Positions 11,944 to 18,124 of a DNA stretch of 19,446 nucleotides are shown here, one piece after another. Both the position numbers and the translations under genes were made by a program. The notes below the pieces were generated by a model. The model was given only the letters and a program-made list of their open reading frames with translations. It ran no database searches and was not told the origin of the DNA. The stretch is from Candidatus Eiseniibacteriota bacterium (lineage in GTDB: Bacteria > JAFGKV01): positions 1-19,446 of the forward strand of contig JALOPK010000026.1 of assembly GCA_025453925.1 (NCBI GenBank), read 5' to 3'. Within the stretch, counting starts at the first letter, position 1. Every line of letters begins with the position of its first letter.

Positions 11944-12984
11944 TCACGCCCCAAGGCACTCGCGAGGCGGCAACTCCCGGTCAATGAGGCGCCAGAACGA
12001 CGGTCCGCGTTTGAAGTGGAGCTCGTATCCCGGAACCAGCCGCGATACCCGGCACGCGACGCCGAAGGCGTGGCCGATGGCATCGGGCGACAGACTGCCT
12101 CCGGGAGGAGCCTGAAGGAACGCGGCGAACAGAGCAGACGCCGTACGCATTGGCGACAGGGGAACCAACGCGTCCTCGTCCGCCTTGTGCAGCAGGAATA
12201 CCGCCCGAACCGAGGGCGTCTCCTGGGAGTATCCCGCCGGAGAGAGTTTCGGGCTCGGGGCCGCCGCGACAAGGAACCCCTCGTCACGCGCTATCAGGAA
12301 GTTCACGTCGTCTCCGAGAGCGGGCCGGTTGGCCTCGCGACTCCACGTGGCGACCGATGTCTTCCCCGCGTCCGACTCGCCCAGGAAGAGAAACCCGTCT
12401 CCATCCCGGGCGACGGCGGATGAGTGGAGGATGAGGCCCCCGTGTTCCGTATGCCGTGCAGTCGCGAGGTAGAGCAAGAGCGCCAGCAGCCGCAATGACG
12501 TCTGGTCATGGTGTTCCGGCGCCACGAGGGCCGTGGCGCGGAGGAGGGCCTGAGCTGCTCCACCTTCTCCCGCTGAGTTGGAGAATGGCCCGGGCGGCCA
12601 CGAGAAGGTGAATGCGCCTGATCCCCGGTGGCCGCGAAGGCCTTCGGGAGTGCCGGCAAATTGGGCGTACGCTTCAGCCAATGCGCGTTGGAAGCGACTC
12701 CACGCCTCGCCGCCGCCGCGCGGTGCGTGTGCGAGCCAGGCCGACTCATCAGGGGGGAGGGGCGATCCGGACACGACCACGTACTCCTCTTCGTCCTCCC
12801 GCGGGGCCACGACGAATCCGAACGGGGCCAGCTTGCCGACAAGGTCCTCGACCGACCGGGCACCGATTTCGTTCAGGGAGACGAGGGTTGACCGCCATCC
12901 GCCAAGGCGGATGGCGACTGCGTTTCCCGCGGGCGACGAGGTCGCGGCATGTGCGGGCTCCGCACGAGCAGTGTGGGCTGGCAT
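11944..12984 (-). CDS. HPr-kinase-like P-loop protein, possible peptide-tailoring kinase
   Basis: The protein has 346 residues. The C-terminal half resembles HprK-related kinases: GGLILHSSAVARDGDGFLFL leads into the P-loop GESDAGKTS (Lys208). LGDDV follows near 223-227, with the acidic pair these kinases use for metal. The N-terminal 180 residues have no domain I can name. It lacks the N-terminal regulatory domain of true HPr kinase, and no HPr gene is nearby. Family knowledge: HprK-related proteins recur beside PqqD-domain proteins, and HprK homologues phosphorylate some lasso peptides. Here it follows two precursor-like peptides and shares a strand with a tandem PqqD protein, so peptide or carrier modification is the best guess. 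The start is ATG with GAGGT (12988-12992) a few bases upstream. A terminator hairpin (13035-13079) separates it from the peptides. Confidence 0.8.
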   Translation of the reverse strand: MPAHTARAEPAHAATSSPAGNAVAIRLGGWRSTLVSLNEIGARSVEDLVGKLAPFGFVVAPREDEEEYVVVSGSPLPPDESAWLAHAPRGGGEAWSRFQRALAEAYAQFAGTPEGLRGHRGSGAFTFSWPPGPFSNSAGEGGAAQALLRATALVAPEHHDQTSLRLLALLLYLATARHTEHGGLILHSSAVARDGDGFLFLGESDAGKTSVATWSREANRPALGDDVNFLIARDEGFLVAAAPSPKLSPAGYSQETPSVRAVFLLHKADEDALVPLSPMRTASALFAAFLQAPPGGSLSPDAIGHAFGVACRVSRLVPGYELHFKRGPSFWRLIDRELPPRECLGA

Positions 12985-13034
12985 TGGCGACCTCGCGATG
13001 GGTGAGGACGTGCTGGACGCAGGGTGGCAATCAG

Positions 13035-13079
13035 AAAAACGGCGGCCACCACCGGGACCTACCCGGCTGGCGGCCGCCG
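13035..13079 (-). terminator. Rho-independent terminator between precursor peptides and kinase
   Basis: CGGCGGCC at 13040-13047 pairs with GGCCGCCG at 13072-13079, with an inner CCGGG/CCCGG pairing (13052-13056 with 13062-13066). Reading on the minus strand, the stem is followed at once by TTTTT (13039-13035). It lies 57 bases past the stop of the second peptide gene and 50 bases before the kinase start. Such a site would keep peptide mRNA high and let only part of transcription reach the kinase. Confidence 0.8.
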
Positions 13080-13135
13080 CTCACTCGCGTGCTGCTGCCC
13101 GCAGGCGGGGGCCTCAACTCAGTATGGGCGTTGCC

Positions 13136-13375
13136 TCAGGGCTCGGGCACCACACTGGCATACTGGCCGAGGGCGCAGTGGGTCGCTCCGGTGCCGGCCT
13201 CGCAATAGTTCGTCCCGGTGAACAACTCGCCCCTGTTGCAGAGGCCTGAGTGGATGCTCCCGGTCCGGCACTGCTCGGTCGGTGTCCCGCCGCTGAAACA
13301 GGCCAGGGGGATCGGCGGCCCGCCGGAGGCCGATCGCCCACCGAGATCCGTCACGGTCGGCTTTTCGTATTTCAC
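13136..13375 (-). CDS. Cys-rich RiPP precursor-like peptide 1
   Basis: This 79-residue peptide begins MKYEKPTVTDLGGRSASGG. The leader contains Y3xxP6 followed by V8, D10-L11 and G12-G13, close to the YxxP...G leader motif known from lasso and related precursors that bind PqqD-type recognition domains. The remaining part has five Cys at 26, 36, 46, 58 and 67. Each is followed by two residues and Gly (CFSG, CRTG, CNRG, CEAG, CALG), making five CxxG units of 9-12 residues. There is no signal peptide and no double-Gly export site of the usual type apart from G18-G19. The start is GTG with CGAGGT (13383-13388) upstream. It is 51 of 76 positions identical to the peptide encoded 15 bases upstream, with all Cys in register. 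The modification and the leader cleavage point are unknown. Confidence 0.8.
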   Translation of the reverse strand: MKYEKPTVTDLGGRSASGGPPIPLACFSGGTPTEQCRTGSIHSGLCNRGELFTGTNYCEAGTGATHCALGQYASVVPEP

Positions 13376-13390
13376 GGAGTCTACCTCGGG

Positions 13391-13621
13391 TTAGTCGATG
13401 CTCGCCAGGTTGCCCTGGATGCAGTCCGTGGCGCCGGTTCCGTCGGTGCAGTTGTAGGCACCGCCGAAAAGGTCACCCGTATTGCAGAGCCCGGCGTGAA
13501 CCTCGCCTGTGGCGCACTGCTCGGTCGGGCCCGTGCCGCTGAAACATCCCAGCGGGATCGGGGGGCCGCCTGACGCAGAGCGACCGCTCAGGTCGCGAAC
13601 CGATGGCTTCTCATACTTCAC
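13391..13621 (-). CDS. Cys-rich RiPP precursor-like peptide 2
   Basis: This 76-residue paralogue of the neighbouring peptide begins (M)KYEKPSVRDLSGRSASGG. I chose the GTG at 13619-13621 over the longer open frame (to 13675) because it has a textbook GGAGGT (13627-13632) five or six bases upstream and aligns exactly with the start of the neighbour. It has the same YxxP leader and the same five Cys positions (26, 36, 46, 58, 67), each in a CxxG unit (CFSG, CATG, CNTG, CTDG, CIQG). Differences from the neighbour concentrate between the Cys and at the C-terminus (GNLASID). GPPIPL just before the first Cys is identical in both. It is the first peptide gene of the pair, with a candidate promoter upstream at 13755-13783. 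Confidence 0.8.
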   Translation of the reverse strand: MKYEKPSVRDLSGRSASGGPPIPLGCFSGTGPTEQCATGEVHAGLCNTGDLFGGAYNCTDGTGATDCIQGNLASID

Positions 13622-13754
13622 AAGGCACCTCCGGGAGTCTGGCCTGTAAGGCTCTACCACTGCTCGCGGTGGCACCGTCGTTCGACTCGCCGCGACGCCT
13701 GATCATCGCGCCGCAGCGAGTGACCGGAGTTCCACCATTGCACAAACCGACACA

Positions 13755-13783
13755 AATCTATGCGGGCCAATGTCGGGGCGCAA
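13755..13783 (-). promoter_or_regulatory. Candidate promoter for the precursor-peptide pair
   Basis: On the minus strand, TTGCGC (13783-13778) and TAGATT (13760-13755) are separated by 17 bases, inside an AT-richer stretch of the 232-base spacer between the glycosyltransferase stop and the first peptide start. The -10 matches 4 of 6 consensus positions and the -35 matches 3 of 6. It would give the peptides their own transcript of about 700 bases, ending at the 13035-13079 terminator. Confidence 0.35.
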
Positions 13784-13853
13784 CAAGATCCTGCACACCC
13801 TTCGACACGCCCTCAGTCGGAATGCCCCGCGCCTGGCCATCGACGCCATCCGT

Positions 13854-15293
13854 TCAATGCGCCGAGGCAGCCGCCTCGTTCGAGATCAACTCGCTCGGGT
13901 AGGCCGCGAAATGCCGCGGATACTCATAGCGCATGACCGGGTAGGCGTCGGGGTAGTCGCTTGAATCCGACGCCGCCATGGCGCCCAATTCCTCCCACAG
14001 CGATTCGTACCGCCGCGTCTGGCAGGCGAGCGTGAAGTGCTCCTCCACCCGCGCCTTCGCCGCCTCTCCCATGCGGCGGCGCACGCCCGGGCTTTCCACC
14101 AGCTCCCGCACGTACCGGGCCGCCAGGCCGAGATCGATGCCGACCTGCCGGCTCATGGTGTGAATAGTCGAATGATCGAAGGGATGTCGCAGGGTCTGAA
14201 GCGCGTCCGCAGGGCTGATCCGTGCCTGCCATTGGGTGGGCACGAGGAATCCCGTCCGCTGATGAACCACGATGTCGCGAAACCCGTCCCAATCACTGCA
14301 CACCACCGGAAGCCCCGCCGCCATGGCCTCGATGAGTGCCACGCCGAAAGACTCCTGAAGGTTGTCGCTGAACGCGATGAACATATCCGCTGCGCTGAGC
14401 AGATCCGCTTTGTGGGACTCAGGGTAGTCCGCAATCACGCGCACGCGCCGTGCGAGGGGCGTGCCCCGGATCTGTGCGGCAATCCGCTTCGCCTCGTGCC
14501 CCGCATCCGCTCCCGCGATGACGAGCATCACGTCGTGCCCCGGTACGGTGACCAGAAGCCTCGCGAAACACTCGAGAAGGCGCGGGTAGGCCATCTTGGT
14601 GAGGCTGTCGATCCGCGCATTGGAGAGGAGCACCGTCGCCGGCTCCGGGATGTCGAACAGCCGGCGGGCAGCGGCACGATCCCGGGGGCTCAGGGCTTCA
14701 TGGTCGATGCCCGGGTGCACCACCTCGATCCGCCCCCGATAGCGAATCGCGCCGGCTGTCGTGACCGCCATATCGCTGACGAACTCGCGCAGCGCGCTCT
14801 GCGCGGCCTTTGAGAGCACGACGAGGGCGTCATAGGGCCTTCCGCCCCGTTCCAGGAAGCACACGTCAAGGACCTCGCGCAGGTGCCCCAGCGTGGCGAT
14901 GGTGTATGACGTTCGCACCAAAGGGATTCTGGGATTGCCCAGGAGGTGGCGGAAAGCAAGCTGGCGCGCCGGATCCATGTTCTCGCCGTGGATCACGGCG
15001 TACGTCTCCGACGACCGCTCCGTGAGCGCGCTGAACGGCCTGAACCGGATACGCGGGCTCGCGCCCTCGGCCCGGGCCCGCTCCTGGTCCGACAGGGACG
15101 ACAGGACCGAGTCATCGAAAAACCCGTGGTAGCCCCGGCACCGGCCGTGACGGAGGAAGCCCTGGGTCTGGTTCCACCGCGCGACGCTGCATCCAAGGGG
15201 CCGGGGAGGCCGGATGAGATGCGAGAACCCCTCGAGGCTCGCTACCAGCCCTTCCCCGAGAGGATCGGCCGGCGCGCGGTTCACCGCCGACAA
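13854..15293 (-). CDS. GT4-type (GT-B fold) glycosyltransferase
   Basis: The protein is up to 479 residues. The C-terminal half is a clear GT4 domain. VLLSNARIDSLTKMAYPRLL marks the nucleotide-sugar lobe, VIADYPESHKADLLSAADMF leads to the donor site, and ESFGVALIEAMAAGLPVV contains the EX7E motif (Glu314 and Glu322). DGFRDIVVHQRTGFLVP completes the site. The N-terminal acceptor lobe contains HGENMDPARQLAFRHLLGNP and RTSYTIATLGHLREVL. The annotated start is TTG at 15291-15293; a GTG three codons in (15282-15284) is as plausible, and neither has a strong ribosome site. It lies 55 bases after the tandem-PqqD gene and before the peptide pair. It may glycosylate the peptides or add sugars to the polysaccharide made by the neighbouring genes; sequence alone does not decide. 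Confidence 0.88.
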   Translation of the reverse strand: MSAVNRAPADPLGEGLVASLEGFSHLIRPPRPLGCSVARWNQTQGFLRHGRCRGYHGFFDDSVLSSLSDQERARAEGASPRIRFRPFSALTERSSETYAVIHGENMDPARQLAFRHLLGNPRIPLVRTSYTIATLGHLREVLDVCFLERGGRPYDALVVLSKAAQSALREFVSDMAVTTAGAIRYRGRIEVVHPGIDHEALSPRDRAAARRLFDIPEPATVLLSNARIDSLTKMAYPRLLECFARLLVTVPGHDVMLVIAGADAGHEAKRIAAQIRGTPLARRVRVIADYPESHKADLLSAADMFIAFSDNLQESFGVALIEAMAAGLPVVCSDWDGFRDIVVHQRTGFLVPTQWQARISPADALQTLRHPFDHSTIHTMSRQVGIDLGLAARYVRELVESPGVRRRMGEAAKARVEEHFTLACQTRRYESLWEELGAMAASDSSDYPDAYPVMRYEYPRHFAAYPSELISNEAAASAH

Positions 15294-15348
15294 CCCTCGC
15301 CGGGACCTGACGGACGAATCGCGGTGGGGGCCGCCTGACTCGGCAGGA

Positions 15349-15993
15349 TCAGGAGCACCTGGTTATGGCTCCCACCTCTTCGAGAACCTGGATGTACTCC
15401 TCGATGTCGTCGGCGAGCGTCTCACCGGGAGTTCCATCGAGCATGGCGGCCACCGCGGCGATCACCTCGGCCATCGTTCGTGCGCCGTCGAGCAACGACC
15501 ATATCGCGGCCCCGGTCGTGTTCAAGGTGAACGTCTCCCGGGTTTTGCCATCCGACAGAATCCCGCCGGAATCGCCTGCTTCACGCAGTGCCACCCCCGG
15601 ACTGGGCGCGTAGATGCGTTGATCGAATTCCCCACCGGCTGCCCCATCAGGAGCACGCGCGTGCGCCACGATGCCCCGGGATTGCATCTCGGTAAAGAGC
15701 ATGAGCAGATCGGCCATGACTCCAGCCGGCGAAACACCATAGCGTGGGGCGACCAAAGCCGAGATCTCTTCCACGGTCTTGAGACCGTCGGTGAGTTCGA
15801 TGGCGTCTCTCGCCGTGCTGTTCAGCCCCACCCAAAACCGTTCCTTGGCCTGGAGCATGAGCGCCCCATCGTCGAAGGGTTCCAAGAGCCAGCCCCTTTT
15901 CACGCGCAGGACACTGGAGCGGGTCAGGGGGTCTGGCCGGGGTGTCGAACTCGATTCGGGCGGGCTCCCAGTGGATACGGTGGCATCAGGCAT
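15349..15993 (-). CDS. Tandem PqqD-domain protein (two RiPP recognition elements)
   Basis: The protein has 214 residues from the ATG at 15991-15993; the open frame extends to 16365, but the extra part is Arg-rich with no domain. After a Ser/Thr/Pro-rich N-terminus there are two PqqD-like domains, about residues 28-110 and 129-211. Both show the family core: a short beta-hairpin, then LNSTARDAIELTDGLKTVEE in the first and LNTTGAAIWSLLDGARTMAE in the second, then an amphipathic helix (LLMLFTEMQSRGIV; EYIQVLEEVGAI). PqqD folds bind the leader peptide of RiPP precursors and hand it to a modifying enzyme. The YxxP peptides encoded downstream are the obvious ligands. A two-domain, free-standing form with no enzyme attached is uncommon. 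The ribosome site (GAGAG) is weak. It is the first gene of the minus-strand block. Confidence 0.85.
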   Translation of the reverse strand: MPDATVSTGSPPESSSTPRPDPLTRSSVLRVKRGWLLEPFDDGALMLQAKERFWVGLNSTARDAIELTDGLKTVEEISALVAPRYGVSPAGVMADLLMLFTEMQSRGIVAHARAPDGAAGGEFDQRIYAPSPGVALREAGDSGGILSDGKTRETFTLNTTGAAIWSLLDGARTMAEVIAAVAAMLDGTPGETLADDIEEYIQVLEEVGAITRCS

Positions 15994-16351: not shown

Positions 16352-18124
16352 ATGCGCGTAGTCATCCCGGCGTTGCGTCATGTTGTTCTGCTGACCCTGG
16401 CGGGTGTGGCGTACCCGGTCGCGCCGGGGGCCGGCGCCTTCCCGTTCGCCACCGAGGTCGCGCCGTCACCCGTCGCCCTTGCCATGCAATCCGCACTCGT
16501 CGAGCTGTCTGTCGCCTGTCGCGATCAGGGCCCCGGTCGCGCCGCGGAACTGGCGGTTGCGCGGGGGTTCTCCATTTCCGAGGGATGCATCCGTGTCGTG
16601 ATCGAGCGGGATCCATGCGGGGAATGGGGCGACCTGTCGCTTCGCGCCCCCGGCGGTGCGATCACGGGGCGGTATGGCCGCCTCGTGGAAGTGGCGATCC
16701 CTATCGCCGCGCTGGAGGGGCTGTCCCGGATGCCGGGAGTACGCTGGGTCCGTCTGCCCTTCCGTCCCCTTCCCTGCGTCGTGAGCGAAGGAGTTGCGCT
16801 GACGGGCGCGGAGGCATGGCACGGGCGGGGCATCACGGGGGAGGGCGTCGAGGTCGCGATCATCGACGTCGGGTTCCAGGGTCTCGCCGCGGCGATTGCC
16901 TCGGGCGAACTGCCCGCCGACGTGACTACCATGGACTTTACCGGCTACGGTATGGAGTCGCTCAGCAAGCATGGGACGGTGGTGGCGGAGATCGTCCACG
17001 ACATGGCGCCCGGCGCCCATCTCACGCTGCTCAACACGTACAGCGAAGTGCAGCTCGGCCAGGCGAAGGACTACTGCGTCCAGCATGGCATCCGGGTCGT
17101 GAACCACTCCGTCGGGTATGAGAACACCGGTGGCCACGATGGAACGGGCATCGTGTGCGAGGTCGCCGATGATGCGGCGGCCCAGGGCATTCTCTGGTGC
17201 AACGCAGCCGGCAACCATGCCCGGAAGCACTACCGGGGACCGTTCACGGATGCCGACGGAGACAGCCTACATGAGTTCGGGAGCGGTTCCTCGGGGGAGT
17301 TCAACTCCCTGGGGAACCTCAACGCCGGTTCTCCGATCTGGGTGTACATGAGCTGGTACGACTGGCCCACGACCTCGGAGGACTACGACCTCGAGCTGTG
17401 GGGAAATGACGGAACCTGGCGGCTCGTCCGGGCCTCCGCCACGCGCCAGACGGGGACCCAGCCTCCCACGGAAGAGATCATCGGCTACTCCGTACCCTTC
17501 GCAGGGCAGTACGGTGTTGCCGCCCGGAGCTACCGGACCACTGCCAGTCACGGGATCACGTTCCTCAGCGCCTACCAGGAACTGGGATGCCAAACCCCCG
17601 CCGGCAGCATCTTGCAGCCCGCCGACGCCGCGGGATCGTTCGCGGTGGCAGCCATCGACGAGGACCTGTGGACCACCGGACCACAGGATGGTTACAGTTC
17701 GCAGGGGCCGACCTACGATGGTCGCCCGAAGCCCGACATCTCCGGCCCTTCCGGGGTCTCGACCTGGACGGGCGGATCCGGCGCGGCCGTGGACAGCGTC
17801 TATGGCTGGGGACGGCTCGATCTTCCGCTGGAACTCGGCGGCGATCCCGCGGTTGCCGGGGCTGTTGCGCTCATGTCAGTCTCCCCGAATCCCTTCAACG
17901 GACAGATCCACCTCACCTTTGAACTGCGAGCGCCGGCCACGGCGGAATTCGGAATCTATGATGCCGCGGGGCAGCGAGTCGGCTCGGTGAGCGCTGGGTT
18001 CCTGCAGGCCGGGAGGCATGCGGTGTCGTGGGGCGGCACCGACGAGCATGGCGCCCCTCTCGGGCCGGGAACCTACTTCGTCACCCATGGCGGAGTCACC
18101 AGTCGGATCGTCCTCGTCCGCTGA
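16352..18124 (+). CDS. Secreted subtilisin-family (S8) protein lacking the catalytic Ser segment
   Basis: The protein has 590 residues from the ATG at 16352, which has AGGAG six bases upstream and opens a signal peptide (MRVVIPALRHVVLLTLAGVA). A pro-region precedes the peptidase domain, which starts near residue 160 with GEGVEVAIIDVGF (Asp172). SKHGTVVAEIVHDMAPGA gives His207, and NAAGNH gives the oxyanion Asn288. A beta-rich insert follows (about 310-430). The usual GTSxxxPHVAG block with the nucleophile is absent: KPDISGPSGVSTWTGGSG (to residue 477) runs straight into DSVYGWGRLDLP, a motif that normally lies some 50-60 residues after it. So it is either an inactive homologue or an in-frame deletion. 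The C-terminal 80 residues form a FlgD/T9SS-like domain (SVSPNPFNGQIHLTFEL ... GTYFVTHGG). It is divergent from the PqqD gene. Confidence 0.88.
   Translation: MRVVIPALRHVVLLTLAGVAYPVAPGAGAFPFATEVAPSPVALAMQSALVELSVACRDQGPGRAAELAVARGFSISEGCIRVVIERDPCGEWGDLSLRAPGGAITGRYGRLVEVAIPIAALEGLSRMPGVRWVRLPFRPLPCVVSEGVALTGAEAWHGRGITGEGVEVAIIDVGFQGLAAAIASGELPADVTTMDFTGYGMESLSKHGTVVAEIVHDMAPGAHLTLLNTYSEVQLGQAKDYCVQHGIRVVNHSVGYENTGGHDGTGIVCEVADDAAAQGILWCNAAGNHARKHYRGPFTDADGDSLHEFGSGSSGEFNSLGNLNAGSPIWVYMSWYDWPTTSEDYDLELWGNDGTWRLVRASATRQTGTQPPTEEIIGYSVPFAGQYGVAARSYRTTASHGITFLSAYQELGCQTPAGSILQPADAAGSFAVAAIDEDLWTTGPQDGYSSQGPTYDGRPKPDISGPSGVSTWTGGSGAAVDSVYGWGRLDLPLELGGDPAVAGAVALMSVSPNPFNGQIHLTFELRAPATAEFGIYDAAGQRVGSVSAGFLQAGRHAVSWGGTDEHGAPLGPGTYFVTHGGVTSRIVLVR

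Follow-up and report, generated by a model that had tools for sequence, protein, structure and literature searches.

Which kind of peptide-maturation system is encoded by a gene set that joins a predicted leader-binding protein, a kinase and a glycosyltransferase to two small Cys-rich peptides? The question is raised by a 19,446-nucleotide stretch of DNA from Candidatus Eiseniibacteriota bacterium, here called the window, which makes up the entire contig G000:C279 of a genome that is 82% complete. An earlier note, made from the letters of this DNA, had delineated five co-oriented genes as a candidate cluster for a ribosomally synthesized and post-translationally modified peptide (RiPP) of a class that it could not name. 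The five genes are indeed present, all on the minus strand from position 15993 to position 11944, in the order tandem PqqD, glycosyltransferase of family GT4, peptide, peptide and kinase. The class, in turn, can be named: the locus is a variant of the catalogued but uncharacterised SynChlorMet (SCM) system (NCBIfam TIGR04248-TIGR04252), a full-length relative of which is encoded in the same genome. Judged by sequence relationships, it is very probably a RiPP-type peptide-maturation cassette that derives from the SCM cassette or shares ancestry with it.

A probable SCM-type cassette with a glycosyltransferase gene in place of the radical SAM genes

The members of SCM cassettes are ScmD, ScmC, the radical SAM/SPASM proteins ScmE and ScmF, and the precursor ScmA; the literature searched holds no described product for any of these cassettes. 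The complete SCM-type cassette of the same genome, on contig C222 (L022), consists of PqqD, ScmE, ScmF, peptide and kinase, with scores of 389.9 bits for the ScmE-like (TIGR04250) and 346.6 bits for the ScmF-like protein (TIGR04251) against cut-offs of 400. The window is collinear with this cassette and with that of G047:C39 (L078) except for the GT4 gene, which therefore sits where ScmE and ScmF sit in SCM cassettes. Wherever else a peptide of this type adjoins cassette genes, ScmE and/or ScmF is also present (G000:C222, G001:C308, G001:C329, G032, G047:C39, G047:C138, G079, G081, G090, G121, G179 and a Desulfobacterales contig). Two of these loci, C308 and C329, are further SCM-type cassettes of the sister species G001, which, together with the source genome G000 and a third genome, formed the phylum-level comparison set. 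The lack of a radical SAM gene in the window, which the earlier note had pointed out, was borne out: tblastn with five ScmE/ScmF proteins revealed neither an ORF nor a remnant (nothing better than E 0.01), and a hidden or frameshifted radical SAM gene was rejected on these grounds. In short, the likeness to SCM extends over PqqD, the ScmC-type kinase, the YxxP/CxxG peptides and the gene order, whereas the difference lies in GT4 standing in for ScmE/ScmF and in PqqD, kinase and peptides staying under the curated cut-offs.

Precursor-like peptides and their predicted leader-binding protein

The two peptides, described before as paralogous, Cys-rich and equipped with a YxxP motif, are 67% identical; their GTG starts at 13621 and 13375 are preceded by the Shine-Dalgarno-like sequences GGAGGTG and GAGGTAGA. 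They share the YxxP-containing leader KYEKPxVxDL (in its longer form KYEKPxVxDLxGRSA), and Cys 26, 36, 46, 58 and 67 are identical in both, all five in CxxG motifs at a pitch of roughly 10 residues. Shuffled sequences contain 0.8-0.9 CxxG per peptide, as against the five observed (p 1e-4 or less), and throughout 12 aligned peptides of this kind all Cys, or all but one, lie in CxxG. The same motif at about the same pitch recurs in ScmA-like peptides of SCM cassettes from eight other genomes. A profile (A5) built from the 12 peptides matches 11 of the 386 genomes searched, among them G293, whose weak match (E 8e-4) is left out of account. The ScmA model TIGR04252 (cut-off 35 bits) does not match the window peptides, and related peptides within SCM cassettes reach it with up to 29.2 bits (best 8e-7). 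On their leader and their CxxG pitch, the window peptides are assigned to the ScmA-like type. A scan of Genome Taxonomy Database (GTDB) contigs with these peptides as queries gave no matches; the closest other peptide (MKYEKPIVRDLTGRSAAGGPP..., 7e-9) is encoded in the sister species on a 5.5-kb contig that carries no PqqD, kinase or GT4 gene. A further, orphan ScmA-like peptide of this species (L167 1991-2263, on G001:C207) has no PqqD or kinase gene within the 8 kb read.

The prediction of a two-domain PqqD protein held: each half passes PF05402 separately, with 48.9 and 38.5 bits (cut-off 23.4). The best NCBIfam model is that of ScmD, TIGR04248 (3.2e-12, 46.5 bits), below its cut-off of 100; this cut-off is strict, since the ScmD of C222 also falls short of it with 63.4 bits. 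Domain comparison showed domain 2 to be similar to ordinary ScmD, and domain 1 to be similar to the first domains of the tandem PqqDs in two SCM cassettes, being closest to that of one of them and to its own domain 2. Tandem PqqDs also lie within the SCM cassettes of G047:C39 (L078 1468-2046) and G079:C23 (L163 12047-12700). The protein is accordingly classed, by homology, as a ScmD-type predicted leader-binding protein. Viral contigs contain no relative of it. When the PDB was searched with its sequence, the matches were headed by pentatricopeptide designs, which were judged compositional artefacts; PqqC/D (5sxy) and TbiB1 (5v1u) came next.

The kinase

The P-loop protein at the end of the gene set carries the motif H187-S, a Walker A motif (GESDAGKT, 202-209) and a DD pair (225-226). 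In the structure model, the C-terminal domain has a pLDDT mostly near 90 and the N-terminal half is poorly modelled; residues 182-346 match HprK/P (Z 11.1, rmsd 3.0-3.2 A over 126-128 of about 165 residues) and also PEPCK, and the former reading of this protein as HprK-related is thus right. Its best NCBIfam model is ScmC, TIGR04249 (1.3e-11, 44.4 bits), below the cut-off of 125. In the kinase tree, it groups with the SCM kinases L072, L024, L078 and L163 plus L099 with a support of 92/92, and thus close to the two cassettes that likewise have a tandem PqqD; it is classed from these relationships as an ScmC-type member of the HprK/PEPCK fold. Scanning GTDB contigs with the kinase yielded 15 loci, the closest being L099 from Anaerolineaceae, the partners of which are unseen because the contig ends there; the partial genome that carries L099 encodes no GT4 of this kind.

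Membership in the HPr-rel-A system was rejected: the window PqqD scores 19.4 bits with its PqqD model TIGR04353, under the cut-off of 35, and no HprK-related kinase A entry is found among the NCBIfam matches of the kinase. Separately, all three phylum genomes encode a second HprK/ScmC-like P-loop protein, which follows a branched-chain aminotransferase-like gene (L023 6264-7082, L025 6987-7790, L026 7483-8283).

The glycosyltransferase and the proposed pathway

The assignment of the remaining enzyme to GT4 is upheld by its PF00534 match (3.4e-23) and by an EX7E motif, E-SFGVALI-E; its start is ambiguous (GTG at 15284 or TTG at 15293). Only generic GT4 similarity is found in its own and the sister genome, and a recent duplication of one of the genome's other glycosyltransferases was rejected, the best match elsewhere in the genome being 4e-9. 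Three unrelated genomes (G025, G262 and G190) encode relatives that align with most of the protein and are 28-33% identical to it. One of these relatives, in G190, shares a 17.7-kb contig with an ScmA-like peptide that has many CxxG (L162 560-913), a co-location that is suggestive without being an operon. The G190 peptide itself lies beside an S26-like ORF and a carboxypeptidase-like ORF.

These components could act together in the following manner: The tandem PqqD would bind the YxxP leader and present the peptide. The kinase may phosphorylate a hydroxyl residue of the peptide, for which linear polyphosphorylated peptides (LPP) and paeninodin provide precedents. GT4 may add a sugar, placed directly on Ser, Thr or Cys of the peptide or else on the phosphate, and would thereby stand in for radical SAM chemistry; other proteins would remove the leader and carry out export. 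That the peptides are substrates, PqqD the leader binder and the kinase a tailoring enzyme had been proposed before, and homologous kits in many genomes, together with the LPP precedent (PMC13381572), lend support to these predicted roles. By analogy, phosphorylation of the peptide by the kinase is somewhat probable, while its glycosylation by GT4 is a tentative proposal with the chances slightly against it. The link between GT4 and the peptides is drawn from gene position, since the GT4 relatives lack PqqD neighbours and the pairing in G190 is no operon. Taken as one statement, the best explanation as a whole has about even chances. Its most specific form is rather unlikely as worded, namely that the SCM kit of YxxP/CxxG peptide, PqqD and HprK-fold kinase swapped its radical SAM pair for GT4, and that the repeat peptide is both phosphorylated and glycosylated, with the sugar possibly on the phosphate. 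That glycosylation has taken over from radical SAM chemistry is in itself plausible, if unproven.

Several observations weigh against this pathway. None of the three GT4 relatives adjoins a PqqD gene, those in G025 and G262 being located among other genes, and in G190 about 9 kb with opposite-strand genes separate the GT4 relative from the peptide. A GT4 of this kind was found in no other PqqD/kinase cassette; the earlier note's requirement that relatives conserve the gene set was only half borne out, since peptide, PqqD and kinase recur as a kit and GT4 does not. The same split is seen in the sister species, which has kept peptide and subtilase: a GT4 of this kind was not detectable there at 1e-15, nor was a tandem PqqD, its other PqqDs being single-domain, an absence that is likely rather than certain because this genome is about 94% complete. 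PqqD and kinase both score under the curated SCM cut-offs, the inner branches of the kinase tree nearest to the window are weak (86/36 and 84/20), and a single-sequence structure model of the tandem PqqD had to be discarded (mean pLDDT 39.7). Finally, a GT4 gene is unremarkable in an exopolysaccharide locus, and the neighbouring genes Polysacc_synt_2, DegT, Wzz and SLBB mark the window as such; GT4 may have an exopolysaccharide role.

This setting also suits an explanation in which the window peptides depend, as satellite substrates, on the C222 cassette: ScmE and ScmF would modify them in trans with the help of the local PqqD and kinase, and GT4 would be an exopolysaccharide gene that entered the operon by chance. 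Both radical SAM proteins are encoded in the same genome, and the C222 peptide (MVKRVRPVYEPPRARDLSG..., six CxxG) has the YExPxxRDLSG leader motif and the CxxG pitch in common with the window peptides. Moreover, some lasso RiPP recognition elements (RREs) are promiscuous; FusB1, one of them, binds non-cognate leaders (PMC13381572). Against supply in trans stand the PqqD and the kinase that the window cassette has of its own, as well as the GT4 gene, which is flanked by PqqD, at a distance of 64 bp, and by the peptide genes and is no evident paralogue of the genome's other GT4 genes. We regard this explanation as unlikely, if worth keeping in mind.

Comparison with characterised systems

Glycocins likewise combine a Cys/Ser-rich peptide with an adjacent glycosyltransferase; their S-glycosyltransferases are of the GT2 type and act on disulfide-hairpin substrates. 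The window shares with them the Cys-rich peptide beside a glycosyltransferase and differs in that its enzyme is not GT2-type and is accompanied by PqqD and a kinase. Lasso peptide membership was rejected, as neither a macrolactam synthetase nor a B2 leader peptidase is among the window proteins scanned. Paeninodin arises from a precursor that is phosphorylated by an HPr-kinase homologue; pseudomycoidin also receives hexoses, which are attached to the phosphate (PMC8498205). Common to these systems and the window would be an HPr-kinase homologue that acts on the precursor; sugar transfer falls there to a member of the nucleotidyltransferase family and would fall to a GT4 in the window.

A parallel in composition is offered by the LPP RiPPs, where a discrete RRE binds the YxxP leader and an HprK-like kinase polyphosphorylates a Ser of the core (PMC13381572). 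YxxP-leader peptide, discrete predicted RRE, HprK-like kinase and polysaccharide locus are all found in the window. The leader KYEKPxVxDLxGRSA differs from the LPP consensus YxxPxVLxHQxIxFETxxS, and the window has CxxG repeats; furthermore, no SpI-type peptidase, NTP transferase or MsbA-like transporter is among the window proteins scanned. Membership in the LPP family was rejected on the leader consensus and on these peptidase, transferase and transporter genes. The rest of the LPP kit appears on several SCM-type contigs, where an S24/S26-like peptidase, an MsbA-type ABC transporter or NTP_transf_5 occurs (L099, L163, L164, L165 and L072), which suggests that SCM and LPP are either related or convergent in their use of one kit.

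Could the window then be an LPP-like system that only phosphorylates, with the kinase acting on the leader-bound peptide, no sugar added, and the CxxG cysteines free, disulfide-bonded or metal-binding? YxxP leader, RRE and HprK-fold kinase are the LPP core (PMC13381572), and LPP clusters, too, occur inside glycosyltransferase-rich capsular polysaccharide loci, with the authors' warning that the glycosyltransferases there need not belong to them (PMC13381572), a caution that applies to the window as well. Nevertheless, the missing LPP partners and leader consensus speak against this possibility, and five conserved CxxG are characteristic of SCM peptides; it appears quite improbable.

If the SCM-derived cassette with GT4 is real, two things follow: (i) leader, PqqD and kinase would form a module able to work with very different modifying enzymes; and (ii) the undescribed SCM family would be tied to the newly characterised LPP peptides. 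The locus also provides a compact test case of two peptides and three enzymes, for which the organism's own intact radical SAM cassette could serve as a natural control.

Surroundings of the cassette

Along the minus strand, the intergenic distances are 64 bp (PqqD-GT4), 232 bp (GT4-peptide), 15 bp (peptide-peptide) and 151 bp (peptide-kinase). The hairpin listed in Table 1 has a folding energy of -44.5 kcal/mol (z -4.8) and is followed by UUUUU; its position would favour peptide output over kinase output.

Table 1. Positions of the cassette genes and of adjoining features in the window
Feature	Positions	Strand	Basis or remark
Tandem PqqD of 214 aa, ScmD-like, predicted RRE type	15349..15993	-	PF05402 twice; TIGR04248 best NCBIfam match
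GT4-family glycosyltransferase, EX7E motif, at ScmE/ScmF position	13854..15284	-	PF00534
Precursor-like peptide 2, 76 aa, GTG start, leader VKYEKPSVRDLSG, five CxxG	13391..13621	-	
Precursor-like peptide 1, 79 aa, GTG start, leader VKYEKPTVTDLGG, five CxxG	13136..13375	-	
ScmC-like kinase, HprK/PEPCK fold, 346 aa	11944..12984	-	TIGR04249; structure model; tree
Terminator-like hairpin with U5 tail	13040..13079	-	Between peptide genes and kinase gene
S8 subtilase, FlgD-type C-terminal domain	16352..18124	+	Divergent from PqqD

The neighbouring S8 subtilase contradicts the further claim that the window lacks a peptidase. It lacks 43 residues, including the catalytic Ser, with the frame preserved; the gap is either a real deletion or an assembly error, two cases that are indistinguishable here. 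Its sole close relative in the three phylum genomes (5.9e-162; the next best full match is 2e-19) is that of G001:C306 (L030 3527-5464), a 1:1 relative which adjoins the same GGPP/CxxG peptide type; peptide and subtilase thus go together in both species, and in the sister species the enzyme may serve for proteolysis. The third phylum genome has neither peptide nor subtilase.

The damaged subtilase, as well as a contig of the sister species that contains only an orphan peptide and a subtilase, would be accounted for by a decaying or rearranged SCM cassette that has lost its radical SAM enzymes, acquired GT4 by chance insertion and makes no functional product. Decay of this kind is very improbable: all five cassette genes have intact open frames of coding-like composition, the two diverged peptides retain every Cys and the leader, and GT4 and kinase retain their motifs.

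Beyond the cassettes considered so far, each of the three phylum genomes also contains a conserved pair of one PqqD and one radical SAM gene with no evident peptide, located beside a tRNA-binding-domain-like gene (L032, L033 and L034).

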